From assembly GCA_021810205.1 (NCBI GenBank), contig JAJZJC010000005.1, positions 1-58,614 on the forward strand: a stretch of 58,614 bases of DNA, given 5' to 3'. The DNA is from Actinomycetes bacterium (GTDB lineage Bacteria > Actinomycetota > Acidimicrobiia > Acidimicrobiales > RAAP-2). Shown here piece after piece: positions 23,018-26,362 of the stretch (positions are counted from its first letter, which is position 1; every line of letters begins with the position of its first letter). A program made the position numbers and the translations under genes. The notes below the pieces were generated by a model. The model saw nothing but the letters and a program-made list of their open reading frames with translations, searched no databases and was not told the origin of the DNA.

Positions 23018-24406
23018 TCACTTCTTGGCTGGGTCGGTGCCGTCGGCAGGTCCGAGGTCGCTCTTGGGTCCCCATGGCGCGTCTCGGCGGGCGGGCACGA
23101 CGATACCCGAGGGGCCCACCATGGAGACGGTCCCCACGGCGCTCGTGCCGAACCGCTCGCGGATCGCGTCCACGGCGTCCATCACGTCGTGCCAGTGCTC
23201 CTGGCGGTCCGCGGCGAGCGCCGCCGCGGACGCTGCGACATCCTCGTCTGCCTGCACTGGCTCGAGCTCGAAGCGCAGCTGACGTCCCGCCTGCGCCGGC
23301 TCGAACCCCGACGCGCTGACGCCGAGCAATCGGACCCCGCACTGAACGTCAATCCCGTCGAGGAGTGCGGCGGCGATCGCGGCGATGGCACTACCGGTGT
23401 CGACGGCGAACGCCAGGGTGTGCGAGCGGGTCACGACCGAGAGATTCGGGAACTTCACCTTCACCGTGACGGTGCGGGCGCTACGGTCGTTGCGCCGCAG
23501 GGCCGCGGCCACCGACTCCGACATTCCCATGACGTGGGCCGCGAGCACGGCGGAGTCGACGAGATCCGTCGCGAAGGTCTCCTCGTGCCCCACCGACTTC
23601 ACGGGGCGGTGCGCGACGACCGGGTCGGGGTCCTCCCCTCGGCTGAGGGCGTGGAGGTGCTCGCCGTGGGCGCGCCCCAGCGCACGCACGAGCACCTGCA
23701 CCGGCACCGCTGCGAGATCCCCCACCGTGCGCACGCCGATGTCGTGGAGTCGCTTGGCAGTGGCAGGTCCGACGCCCCACAGGCGATCGACGGCGAGCGG
23801 GTGCAAGAAGGCGAGCTCTTGCCCGGGCTCCACGACGACCACACCCGGTCCCGGCTGCGTGCCACCTCGTTCAGCGCGCGGCTTCGCGGCGCGTGAGGCG
23901 AGCTTTGCGAGCATCTTCGAGCGTCCGGCACCGACCGAGCAGTCGAGGCGAAGCTCCTCGCGCACACGGGTGCGTATCGCCGTGGCGATCTCGAGTGGAG
24001 AGCCGAGCAGGCGCAGTGCACCCTGGACATCCAAGAACGCTTCGTCGAGCCCGACGGGCTCCACGAGAGGCGTGAACGACTCGAGCACGTCGTGGAGTCG
24101 AGCGCTCACCTGCGCGTAGCGCGAGTATCGCCCGTCGACAAAGATCGCTTGCGGGCACAGCTGGCGCGCCCGCAACGAGGGCATCGCCGAGTGCACCCCG
24201 AACGCCCGCGCTTCGTAGGTGCACGACGCCACCACCCCGCGCGAGCCACTCCCCCCGACGATCACCGCCTTGCCGGCGAGCGACGGATCGTCGAGGACCT
24301 CGACGGAGGCGAAGAAAGAGTCCATGTCGACGTGGAGCACGGTCGGTCGATCACGCTGGCGCCCGGTCGGCTGGCCAGCGCTGGGCGAAGAGGCGCCGTC
24401 AGCCAC
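23018..24406 (-). CDS. dinB: DNA polymerase IV (Y family, DinB)
   Basis: About 462 residues. Catalytic acids are in VLHVDMDSFFASVE (about residue 23) and GLDEAFLDV (about 125). CTYEARAFGVHSAMP is the usual finger motif, and the helix-hairpin-helix LWGVGPATAKRLHDIGV lies near 210. It performs error-prone translesion synthesis past damaged DNA. The C-terminal tail of about 60 residues (after FELEPVQ) is longer than in E. coli Pol IV and could hold a clamp-binding site. GTG 24406 overlaps the end of the LmbE gene by 8 bases; a start closer to the catalytic motif is possible. It is the last gene of a chain that starts at SOS boxes. Confidence 0.92.
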   Translation of the reverse strand: MADGASSPSAGQPTGRQRDRPTVLHVDMDSFFASVEVLDDPSLAGKAVIVGGSGSRGVVASCTYEARAFGVHSAMPSLRARQLCPQAIFVDGRYSRYAQVSARLHDVLESFTPLVEPVGLDEAFLDVQGALRLLGSPLEIATAIRTRVREELRLDCSVGAGRSKMLAKLASRAAKPRAERGGTQPGPGVVVVEPGQELAFLHPLAVDRLWGVGPATAKRLHDIGVRTVGDLAAVPVQVLVRALGRAHGEHLHALSRGEDPDPVVAHRPVKSVGHEETFATDLVDSAVLAAHVMGMSESVAAALRRNDRSARTVTVKVKFPNLSVVTRSHTLAFAVDTGSAIAAIAAALLDGIDVQCGVRLLGVSASGFEPAQAGRQLRFELEPVQADEDVAASAAALAADRQEHWHDVMDAVDAIRERFGTSAVGTVSMVGPSGIVVPARRDAPWGPKSDLGPADGTDPAKK

Positions 24407-25100
24407 CGAGACGAAGCCGGCGAAAACCTTCGGCGTGTCGGGCCCCCGCCCGCCGGCCTTCCTCTTCGGCGCGGCGGCGCACGGCCTCCCCCGCCCAGCC
24501 CTCCTCGACCTCGCGGAACTGGCTGCGATGGCACTCCACGGCGGCGGCCTTCGTGTCGACCGTCTCGGAGATGTCGACCCATACGTCGGGCTCCAACGTG
24601 CCCGACAGCAGCACGAGCGACGCCTGGTGTGGGGGCCCCACGTCGGCGAAGTAGTGCGGCAGCGCGGCCGAGGGCGCGAGCGCGTCCAGGAGCGCCCACC
24701 CCGCCGCACGGTGGTCCCGGTGATTGAAGTAGTCCTGCCCGAAGAAGACCGCGGTCGGATCGTGGCCGAACACGACCTCGGGCCGGATCGCCCGGATGTG
24801 GCGCACCAGCTCTTCGCGCAGTCCCCTCCGCTCTTCGAGCTCCCCATCGGCGGCACCGAGGACCTCGTGCGAGGCCAGGCCGACGATCGAGGCCGCCCGG
24901 GCCAGCTCCGCAGCGCGCCGTACGGCCAGCTCCTCGGGCCGCACCTCGGGATCGGTGGTGCCACGCCCCCCGTCGGTGCAGACGACGAGGTGCACCTCGC
25001 AGCCGTGTGCGGCCCACCGCGCGAGCGTGCCGCCGCATGCCACGTCCGCGTCGTCGGGATGCGCGTAGACGGCGAGGGCCACCGCGGGCACGTCGGTCAT
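24399..25100 (-). CDS. PIG-L/LmbE family deacetylase
   Basis: About 233 residues of the LmbE-like zinc N-deacetylase family. Zinc ligands are in AVYAHPDDADVACGGTL (about residue 12) and NHRDHRAAG (about 130), with the acid pair PDD intact. Actinobacterial members include MshB and Mca of the mycothiol pathway, which deacetylate GlcNAc-inositol or cut mycothiol conjugates; the C-terminal phrase RSQFREVE is common in this group. The exact substrate is not clear. ATG 25100 is used, and GTG 25115 is possible. It lies 34 bases after nrdR and overlaps dinB, so it belongs to the same transcript. Confidence 0.88.
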   Translation of the reverse strand: MTDVPAVALAVYAHPDDADVACGGTLARWAAHGCEVHLVVCTDGGRGTTDPEVRPEELAVRRAAELARAASIVGLASHEVLGAADGELEERRGLREELVRHIRAIRPEVVFGHDPTAVFFGQDYFNHRDHRAAGWALLDALAPSAALPHYFADVGPPHQASLVLLSGTLEPDVWVDISETVDTKAAAVECHRSQFREVEEGWAGEAVRRRAEEEGRRAGARHAEGFRRLRLGG

Positions 25101-25134: not shown

Positions 25135-25605
25135 TCACGCCCGCTGCTTGGGCTCGGTCGTCTTGATGAGGAGGCCGACCTCGCGCTGGAAGTCCCCGGC
25201 ATCCTCGAAGCCTTTGTAGACGCTGGCGAACCGTAGGTAGGCGACGTCGTCGAGCACCTTCAGCTGTTCGAGCACCGCGACACCGACCTGCTGGCTGGTG
25301 GGCTCCGGCGACGCGCTGCGCAACGACTCCTCCACGCGCGTCGCGAGCTCCTGGAACATCTCCTCGGTCACAGGGCGGTTCTTGCACGCCGCCTGGACGC
25401 CGGCGATCAGCTTCACCCGGTCGAAGGGCTCCCGCTGCCCGGAGCGCTTCACCACCCACAGCGGTTGCTCCTCCACCCGCTCGAAGGTGGTGAACCGGCG
25501 GCCGCACCCGAGGCACTCCCGGCGACGCCGGATGGCCGCCCCCTCGTCGGACAGACGGGAGTCGACGACACGGTCGTCGTCGACCGCACACCACGGGCAC
25601 CGCAC
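25135..25605 (-). CDS. nrdR: transcriptional repressor NrdR
   Basis: About 156 residues, the usual NrdR size. The zinc ribbon is VRCPWC...ECLGCGRRFTTFER (two CxxC pairs, about residues 3-34). It is followed by the ATP-cone domain WVVKRSGQREPFDRVKLIAGV and the ending with YLRFASVYKGFEDAGDF. NrdR binds ATP/dATP and represses ribonucleotide reductase genes. GTG 25605 is chosen because the zinc motif starts at the second residue in all relatives. It lies between the LysM gene (73 bases upstream) and the LmbE gene. Confidence 0.95.
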   Translation of the reverse strand: MRCPWCAVDDDRVVDSRLSDEGAAIRRRRECLGCGRRFTTFERVEEQPLWVVKRSGQREPFDRVKLIAGVQAACKNRPVTEEMFQELATRVEESLRSASPEPTSQQVGVAVLEQLKVLDDVAYLRFASVYKGFEDAGDFQREVGLLIKTTEPKQRA

Positions 25606-25678
25606 GCGTGCGACGTTAGTGCGCGTGCGGGAATGGGCTCGTGCGCCGCGCCGCCATTCACCACAGTGGTCCCGCCGC

Positions 25679-26200
25679 TCAGGGGATGGCGATCCGCTCT
25701 CCCGGGACGACCGCTGCCGACCCGGTCTCCCTCGCGATGGCCTCAGCGAGTGACCGCGGGTTCCCAGTGCGATCGAAACGACTGGCGATCGACCACAGCG
25801 TGTCTCCCGGTTGGACGACGTAGACCGTGGCGGACGTCGCCACGGCACCGTGGCCCGGCGCCGGCGCCGGCGCCGGCGCCCCTCCCAGCGCGCCAAGGGG
25901 AAGGGCAAGCACCGTGATCAGTCCCGCCACGAGTGCGGCGAGTAGGAGGCTGCGGCGGCGAGCCGCCGCGGACCGCCGGACGACCCTGGGCGCGCCGCAC
26001 GCGCGGCTCTCGGACGGCGACATCGGCCGCAGCGCGACCGCCGCGGGCGCGCGCACAGCCTTCCCCTCCCCCGCCCCGGCGCGACCTGGCGAGCTCGAGG
26101 GCACCACCTGCAGCACCGCTCGCGGCCAGGGACGCTCGAGCAGGCCACACGAGCCGTCCGGCAGTGCCTGGTACTCCATCAGCGGTGCAATTGCCATCAT
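25679..26200 (-). CDS. LysM membrane protein next to lexA; candidate SOS-induced cell division inhibitor
   Basis: About 173 residues. A cytoplasmic N-terminus (about 1-80) leads to one membrane helix (SLLLAALVAGLITVLALPLG, about 83-104), then a Pro/Ala linker (APAPAPAP). A LysM peptidoglycan-binding domain, VYVVQPGDTLWSIASRF, ends at the C-terminus. YneA of Bacillus, DivS of Corynebacterium and Rv2719c (ChiZ) of Mycobacterium are short membrane proteins, typically with LysM, encoded next to lexA and induced by SOS to block division. The position, topology and two upstream SOS boxes fit this role. GAGGGGTGAGG precedes ATG 26200. It heads the chain to nrdR, the LmbE gene and dinB. Confidence 0.85.
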   Translation of the reverse strand: MMAIAPLMEYQALPDGSCGLLERPWPRAVLQVVPSSSPGRAGAGEGKAVRAPAAVALRPMSPSESRACGAPRVVRRSAAARRRSLLLAALVAGLITVLALPLGALGGAPAPAPAPGHGAVATSATVYVVQPGDTLWSIASRFDRTGNPRSLAEAIARETGSAAVVPGERIAIP

Positions 26201-26239
26201 CCTCACCCCTCGTCCCCCGGCCGTGACCCCTTGCCGGTG

Positions 26240-26253
26240 CGAACACCCGTTCG
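26240..26253. promoter_or_regulatory. LexA (SOS) box 1
   Basis: CGAACACCCGTTCG matches the Gram-positive SOS consensus CGAAC-N4-GTTCG exactly. It lies just downstream of the expected transcription start of the LysM gene, so LexA bound here would block its transcription. Confidence 0.9.
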
Positions 26254-26265
26254 GCTCTTTCCTCT

Positions 26266-26294
26266 ATGAGATCACGAACACACGTTCGAGTCAA
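26266..26294 (-). promoter_or_regulatory. promoter of the LysM-nrdR-LmbE-dinB chain
   Basis: On the minus strand TTGACT (26289-26294) and TCTCAT (26266-26271) are separated by 17 bases. SOS box 2 fills the spacer exactly. Transcription should start near 26259 and reach the LysM ATG about 60 bases later. Confidence 0.65.
26275..26288. promoter_or_regulatory. LexA (SOS) box 2
   Basis: CGAACACACGTTCG is a perfect match to CGAAC-N4-GTTCG. It sits between the -35 and -10 elements of the LysM gene promoter, the classical place for repression. Confidence 0.92.
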
Positions 26295-26303
26295 GCACCG
26301 AGT

Positions 26304-26317
26304 CGAACACATGTTTG
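26304..26317. promoter_or_regulatory. LexA (SOS) box 3
   Basis: CGAACACATGTTTG has one mismatch to the consensus (GTTTG for GTTCG). It overlaps the -35 hexamer of the lexA promoter, so it would mediate autoregulation. Confidence 0.82.
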
Positions 26318-26343
26318 TCATCGACGGCGAGGTTGGCTATCCT
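26315..26343 (+). promoter_or_regulatory. lexA promoter
   Basis: TTGTCA (26315-26320) and TATCCT (26338-26343) are separated by 17 bases on the plus strand. The expected start is near 26350, inside SOS box 4, leaving a leader of about 55 bases before the lexA ATG. Confidence 0.65.
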
Positions 26344-26348
26344 CTTGG

Positions 26349-26362
26349 CAAACAGATGTTCG
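26349..26362. promoter_or_regulatory. LexA (SOS) box 4
   Basis: CAAACAGATGTTCG has one mismatch in the left arm. It covers the expected lexA transcription start and completes a row of four boxes starting at 26240, 26275, 26304 and 26349. Confidence 0.8.

Follow-up and report, generated by a model that had tools for sequence, protein, structure and literature searches.

The stretch of DNA analysed here, referred to as the window (58,614 nucleotides from a member of the Acidimicrobiales), carries a lexA gene and, divergent to it, a gene for a LysM protein, with four LexA boxes in the spacer between them (Table 1). The two start codons, at positions 26200 (LysM) and 26406 (lexA), are 205 bp apart, and a GTG at 26206 offers an alternative start for the LysM gene. 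The lexA product combines the Pfam domains LexA_DNA_bind (PF01726) and Peptidase_S24 (PF00717). On the other side of the spacer, LysM, nrdR, PIG-L and dinB all lie on the minus strand between 23018 and 26200, separated by short gaps. The order LysM-nrdR-PIG-L-dinB was found in 10 out of 10 loci from related MAGs having at least 3 kb of upstream sequence; locus L048, with 2.4 kb upstream, shows LysM only, and neither PIG-L nor dinB was found upstream in loci L049-L086. We infer the extent of the operon, in which nrdR is probably co-transcribed with the LysM gene.

Table 1. Genes, LexA boxes and predicted promoters at the lexA/LysM locus (positions in the window).
Feature	Position	Strand	Details
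lexA, SOS repressor, 209 aa	26406..27035	+	TIGR00498, 224 bits vs cut-off 110.95
LysM protein, 173 aa	25679..26200	-	PF01476, 27.3 bits vs 20.9
nrdR	25135..25614	-	TIGR00244, 158.7 bits vs 124.65
PIG-L deacetylase	24399..25097	-	PF02585, 97.8 bits; third gene of the same-strand run; start codon provisional
dinB-type Y-family DNA polymerase	23018..24259	-	PF00817, 128.4 bits, and PF11799, 88.3 bits; fourth of the run; start codon provisional
LexA box 1	26240..26253	.	CGAACACCCGTTCG, 0 mismatches; about +7 to +20 of the predicted LysM transcript
LexA box 2	26275..26288	.	CGAACACACGTTCG, 0 mismatches; in the -35/-10 spacer of the predicted LysM promoter
LexA box 3	26304..26317	+	CGAACACATGTTTG, 1 mismatch; GTTTG half-site is the source of the lexA -35 TTG
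LexA box 4	26349..26362	.	CAAACAGATGTTCG, 1 mismatch; over the predicted lexA transcription start
Predicted lexA promoter	26315..26343	+	TTGTCA 26315-26320, 17 bp, TATCCT 26338-26343; scan found 1, shuffle mean 0.0
Predicted LysM promoter	26266..26294	-	TTGACT 26294-26289, 17 bp, TCTCAT 26271-26266; looser scan

The match of the LysM protein to PF01476 is partial, covering residues 127-143 and 17 of the 43 profile positions. A hydrophobic segment at residues 85-103 (hydropathy 2.49 over 19 residues) precedes it, giving the succession of a transmembrane-type segment and a C-terminal LysM that is typical of YneA, DivS and ChiZ; the position of the gene, divergent to lexA with LexA boxes in between, likewise follows the YneA/DivS/ChiZ layout. 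The NCBIfam YneA equivalog (NF010723) scores 19.3 bits on this protein, under its cut-off of 60, and the protein is therefore termed YneA-like rather than YneA. Judged from the layout, it is a probable SOS division inhibitor of the YneA/ChiZ kind.

An earlier, sequence-only reading of this DNA had placed four SOS boxes in the spacer, two perfect and two with one mismatch, and a pattern scan for CGAAC-N4-GTTCG agrees with it at all four positions. With up to two mismatches allowed, there is no enrichment over the whole window (60 matches vs 48.2 expected, with 60 reached in 7 of 100 shuffles), so that the loose pattern alone is uninformative; the 123 bp of the array contain the only two perfect matches in the window and four of the 12 that it has when up to one mismatch is tolerated. 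That reading had also proposed a genome-wide scan for the same box. In the genome (3.0 Mb, 71.65% complete) there are 13 perfect boxes vs 2 for a reversed control pattern, and 259 vs 108 when one mismatch is allowed. At this density, 206 bp would be expected to contain about 0.018 boxes at no more than one mismatch, and the Poisson probability of four or more is about 4e-9. Chance clustering is ruled out by the genome density, by this probability and by a coding control stretch of the related loci described below, in which 121 of 125 had no box and four had one. A terminator-like hairpin flagged at box 1 proved to be merely the box palindrome and the T-rich stretch after it.

Eleven of the perfect boxes in the genome lie outside the lexA/LysM spacer. 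Pfam was run on the neighbours of seven of these sites (L116, L120, L121 and L122 were left out) and recognised six: ruvC, recA, uvrA, an HNH gene, a resolvase-domain gene and a glycosyltransferase; the neighbour at L117 gave no family. The genes ruvC, recA and uvrA are usual SOS genes, and the perfect boxes before them and at lexA/LysM identify the motif as the Gram-positive type of LexA box (Cheo box).

On the lexA strand the promoter scan returned a single promoter-like site, whose -10 columns are kept in relatives. The first three bases of its -35, TTGTCA, are the final three of box 3, and box 4 would span about -1 to +13 of the transcript, leaving 43 bp between its end and the ATG and a predicted leader of about 56 bp. 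On the LysM strand, a looser scan ranks TTGACT-17-TCTCAT first; this site was missing from the standard scan because its -10 has no A at the second position. Box 2 occupies 14 of the 17 spacer bases of this predicted promoter and is followed by TG-A and then the -10, so that the TG of an extended -10 stands directly after the box. When 118 loci are aligned on box 2, 104 of them have the T of the -35; the two bases of the TG behind the box occur in 84 and 94, and each outer T of the -10 in 79. The -10 itself, TCTCAT, is weak, and its second base is not a conserved A in relatives. The placement claimed earlier, with one box inside the LysM promoter spacer and another just past its start, and one box on the lexA -35 and another on its start, thus matches boxes 2 and 1 and boxes 3 and 4 on the two predicted promoters, when start is read as transcription start.

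Conservation of the array was followed in lexA upstream regions that sample the order rather than cover every genome. A first search gave a lexA match in 56 of 61 genomes, from which 30 loci were taken, plus 20 and seven stretches (a second G030 fragment was left out); a second search gave a match in 272 of 298 genomes and contributed 30 loci (27 new) and a further 60, about one per genus, among the matches listed. After duplicate removal 142 loci of the order remained. Four with less than 290 bp upstream were left out of the box count, giving 138, of which 126 have a LysM gene opposite lexA, and two with less than 140 bp were left out of the tests on single box bases described below, giving 140. 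At no more than one mismatch, the 126 LysM-positive loci contain one box in 4 cases, two in 14, three in 31, four in 70 and five in 7, i.e., four or more boxes in 77 and fewer than four in 49. In the window's own genus 13 genomes were searched, and all nine with a lexA match and enough upstream DNA have four boxes; two of the others are cut at contig ends and two have no lexA match. When loci are anchored on box 3 (n = 124), box 2 is present in 119 (at most one mismatch), box 1 in 105 (at most two) and a counterpart of box 4, 20-60 bp downstream of box 3, in 94 (at most two). The sampled loci are related and these counts are not independent; close kinship is nevertheless not a likely cause of the box conservation, the columns between box 3 and the -10 being near random. 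The locus looks like a functional but ordinary SOS switch with a layout that recurs in many related bacteria.

Some loci depart from this layout. At 11 of them (L018, L100, L157, L163, L180-L182, L184-L186 and L207) the downstream neighbour of box 3 is just 24 bp away and has the right half GTACG; with up to two mismatches allowed, some of these loci reach five or more boxes, some of them spaced 15 bp. The 12 of 138 loci without a LysM match fall into three sets of four. In L026, L133, L159 and L166 there is less than 620 bp of upstream sequence and LysM-side boxes are present, so the contigs were probably cut. In L104, L172, L177 and L195 nrdR is present, and a gene without LysM stands between lexA and nrdR; the replacement frame has a strongly hydrophobic segment with no LysM match or GDTL motif, and the LexA boxes are kept. 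This frame is reminiscent of Staphylococcus SosA, described as having no LysM domain (PMC13396833). The third set (L029, L110, L114 and L179) lacks both LysM and nrdR within about 1.5 kb of upstream sequence; both lexA-side boxes are kept and no LysM-side box is found. By eye, L110 and L114 have an AAA-type ATPase-like frame divergent to lexA in place of LysM-nrdR.

These natural deletions of LysM-nrdR assign two boxes to each gene. Conversely, a LysM-side box at no more than one mismatch is found in 110 of the 111 LysM-positive anchored loci, the exception being L183. A single rigid four-site unit can be rejected: the distance between boxes 2 and 3 ranges from 22 to 158 bp, and in 7 of the 10 loci where it is 70 bp or more boxes 1 and 4 are retained (the seven include L163 and L181, whose downstream box is of the 24-bp type). 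The sequence-only reading had proposed LexA control of both genes with two boxes per promoter, and the recurring layout, the pairs kept in wide-gap loci and the loss of LysM-side boxes upon deletion bear it out; on this comparative evidence, control of both divergent genes by LexA through two boxes each is well supported, and tight control of both is plausible.

The same reading had suggested that this control might be cooperative. LexA dimers on adjacent boxes would then contact each other or loop the DNA, making the four boxes one switch for both genes, as four sites within 123 bp and a box 2-3 spacing of 28-31 bp in 73 of 119 loci could suggest. However, the whole-turn spacing expected of a cooperative array was not found, the three spacings having no common helical phase (phylogeny uncorrected): the mean phase, of 10.5 bp, is 1.5 for boxes 1-2 (R = 0.17, n = 105), 8.4 for boxes 2-3 (R = 0.50, n = 108, with 11 longer spacings left out) and 2.7 for boxes 3-4 (R = 0.40, n = 94). 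The pairs that remain intact when parted by 70 bp or more also speak against it, as do two published precedents: inter-dimer cooperativity is reported as not evident at the double lexA operator of E. coli (PMC7440846), and Bacillus thuringiensis LexA is described as binding two neighbouring phage sites, one of them a half-site, independently (PMC4551915). We regard a cooperative complex as unlikely, and this part of the earlier claim is not borne out.

The extra boxes might instead add little beyond lower basal expression and robustness, with only boxes 2 and 3 mattering in practice. This account of redundancy or dosage has a possible, though lesser, chance of being correct. It would fit the fall from box 2 to boxes 1 and 4 in the anchored loci, the latter two having been counted at the looser mismatch limit, and the report that one strong operator replaced the two at E. 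coli lexA with no detectable difference (PMC7440846). It is countered by the retention of the second boxes in most anchored loci of a diverse order in which the intervening sequence is near random, and an operator pair at each promoter remains our preferred reading.

Box 3 has a property that sets it apart from the other three. Its mismatch falls on the thirteenth position (offset 12), where a T completes the TTG of the lexA -35. When the base at this offset was read in any box with TAnnnT at -10 spacing, T not being required, it was T in 123 of the 124 order loci with a correctly spaced -10 (the anchored box of L114 has C), while the other boxes have C in 243 of 251. Sorted the other way, a -10 at a spacing of 17 +/- 1 accompanies 124 of 137 T-boxes vs 4 of 369 C-boxes (Fisher p about 5e-97, relatedness not corrected; the 41 'named' loci in this table include some MAGs of the same order), and 13 of the 137 T-boxes are without a -10. 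On the minus strand 0 of 49 T-boxes have a -10 at that spacing, and no link between T and -10 is seen there. An anchored fused box is absent in 16 of 140 loci, and in only four of these 16 is a TTG-TA promoter found elsewhere. Mean pairwise identity between box 3 and the -10 in fused loci is 32%, and such near-random columns indicate that the T is kept by constraint and not by close kinship. What the sequence-only reading had counted as an imperfect box is, by the sequence comparison, not decay but a conserved fusion of operator and -35. The CAAAC of box 4 was considered as a minus-strand fused promoter, which the minus-strand T-boxes do not support; relative to an initiating A at +1, its positions are scattered across 40-49.

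The T of box 3 could alternatively be a feature of LexA specificity, i.e., of asymmetric recognition in Actinomycetota, and not a promoter constraint. A footprint study of lexA promoters found the half-motif TCGAACA more significant than the palindrome in Actinobacteria, proposed a diverging LexA specificity and raised binding by monomers or heterodimers (PMC2248561). The central bases of box 3 are biased as well, the ninth position (offset 8) being T in 123 of 124, vs 75 of 105 for box 1, 69 of 119 for box 2 and 39 of 94 for box 4; this T may be a compensation. Yet the other boxes in the same spacers retain C, the ruvC, recA and uvrA genes of this very genome are preceded by perfect symmetric boxes, and the T is coupled to a -10 at the proper spacing only on the lexA strand. 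We therefore consider a specificity feature very improbable, and prefer the constraint imposed by the promoter.

Outside the order, a loose criterion finds the fused operator/-35 in 64 of 67 Actinomycetota loci, many of which are close relatives (Amycolatopsis, Saccharopolyspora) and of which 39 rows were inspected. At least four of the chosen boxes (those of L073, L216, L220 and L231) contain a second mismatch; for L216 and L220, there is a cleaner GTTTG box 16 bp further upstream. With moderate confidence we propose that throughout Actinomycetota the lexA operator and the -35 would form one fused element, CGAAC-RNRT-GTTTG, with a TAnnnT -10 at 17-bp spacing. The asymmetric box would be selected for both sigma factor and LexA, its central bases perhaps restoring affinity, and this would explain at least part of the half-motif asymmetry without changed LexA specificity, monomers or heterodimers: a right half-site altered because it is also the -35 is a simpler cause for part of that finding. 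The footprint study also stressed extra half-sites further upstream, chiefly in Corynebacterium (PMC2248561), and these fall outside the fusion explanation.

Binding data in print for relatives suggest that such a fused box is indeed bound by LexA. The lexA probe used for M. tuberculosis contains CGAACACATGTTTG, identical in all 14 letters to box 3, and the LexA of that organism is reported to have comparable affinity for the boxes tested (PMC8607333). In S. venezuelae, lexA-2 (TCGAACGTGTGTTT) is described as a validated site that is bound more tightly than lexA-1 and ranks with the tighter sites (PMC9380542). In M. tuberculosis, the lexA message is described as leaderless, with translation beginning at the transcription start, which differs from the leader of about 56 bp predicted here, and a printed primer has TACATT seven bases before the ATG taken as the lexA start (PMC2897130). 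In several of the outside loci the -10 word is likewise TACATT. Overlap of operator and promoter as such is already known from C. glutamicum sigH, where a LexA box lies over the -10 region (PMC3489674). Titles and abstract openings among the literature matches listed name neither a four-box array in Acidimicrobiales nor a fused lexA operator/-35; Movahedzadeh 1997, Davis 2002, Jochmann 2009, Ogino 2008 or Chauhan 2006 may already note the overlap. The rule of a fused operator/-35 at lexA is the main addition made here.

We observe the sites, their conservation, their pairing, the fusion and the gene order; from these we infer LexA binding in this organism and the two transcription starts, and consider it very probable that the locus is an SOS autoregulatory hub, with two divergent promoters, each served by a LexA operator pair of its own, and with box 3 fused to the -35. 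In the absence of damage, LexA on the boxes would block RNA polymerase at both promoters, on the lexA side from box 3 over the -35 and box 4 over the start, and on the LysM side from box 2 between -35 and -10 and box 1 shortly after the start. Upon DNA damage, RecA would trigger LexA self-cleavage and both promoters would open, fresh LexA then resetting the system. Box 3 would be a compromise, in which the C-to-T change gives the sigma factor its -35 TTG and LexA binding is retained. Induction would also supply the membrane-anchored LysM protein, probably stalling septum synthesis, and transcription could run onward from the LysM gene into nrdR and perhaps PIG-L and dinB. For YneA, it is described that the membrane segment brings the protein to the division site, that its partner is FtsW, and that LysM must bind peptidoglycan for septal wall synthesis to be blocked; the same mode was suggested for ChiZ by the authors from predicted complexes (PMC13396833).

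The locus is of the lexA-yneA/divS/Rv2719c kind. We take ChiZ to be the product of Rv2719c and this gene to be divergent to lexA in M. tuberculosis; Rv2717c is presumably a gene unlike PIG-L. Shared with M. tuberculosis are a LexA-controlled LysM-type gene followed by nrdR and a lexA box identical to box 3. The divS gene at the divS/lexA locus of Corynebacterium glutamicum is said to encode an SOS-inducible division suppressor, as is proposed for the LysM protein. In Bacillus subtilis, where yneA is presumably divergent to lexA, the operator belongs to the same CGAAC-N4-GTTCG class and the inhibitor likewise has a membrane segment and LysM, and one difference lies in the score of the window's LysM protein, under the YneA equivalog cut-off. 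To our knowledge, E. coli lexA has a different operator sequence and no divergent division inhibitor; the likeness there is in the paired operators at an autoregulated lexA, a promoter described as having two operators and negative autoregulation (PMC7440846). Firmicute lexA promoters are reported to have one to three boxes, with a symmetric motif (PMC2248561). YneA is described as inhibiting division in the SOS response and as having a single transmembrane segment plus a LysM domain, and ChiZ as a LysM protein with YneA-like topology (PMC13396833). In M. tuberculosis the entire Rv2719c-nrdR-Rv2717c operon is reported to be under LexA (PMC4181829), which makes read-through into nrdR, and perhaps dinB, plausible here; dinB may be SOS-induced through read-through from the LysM promoter.

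These results place a probable division inhibitor under SOS control in a large actinobacterial order, possibly together with a translesion polymerase gene in the same run. They also turn a 'mismatch' into a testable rule, namely that the lexA operator is built into the -35, which bears on how basal lexA expression is set in Actinomycetota and on the published idea of a LexA specificity in transition there.

A few observations fall outside the locus. Twelve listed genomes from genus g55 (family f35), all with a completeness of 92% or more, yielded no lexA match at E 1e-20, and the family is missing from the lexA matches listed; LexA may possibly have been lost or have strongly diverged across this genus. 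In the window's genome, an HNH endonuclease-domain frame (L004:1549-2775, plus strand) begins 48 bp after a perfect LexA box, and a resolvase-domain gene (PF00239; L002:1089-1490, minus strand) stands directly after another. The latter looks like an IS607-type element, and by eye L121 has a similar-looking frame beside a perfect box. Judged from these neighbouring boxes, a mobile element at L002 and L121 is possibly under SOS control.
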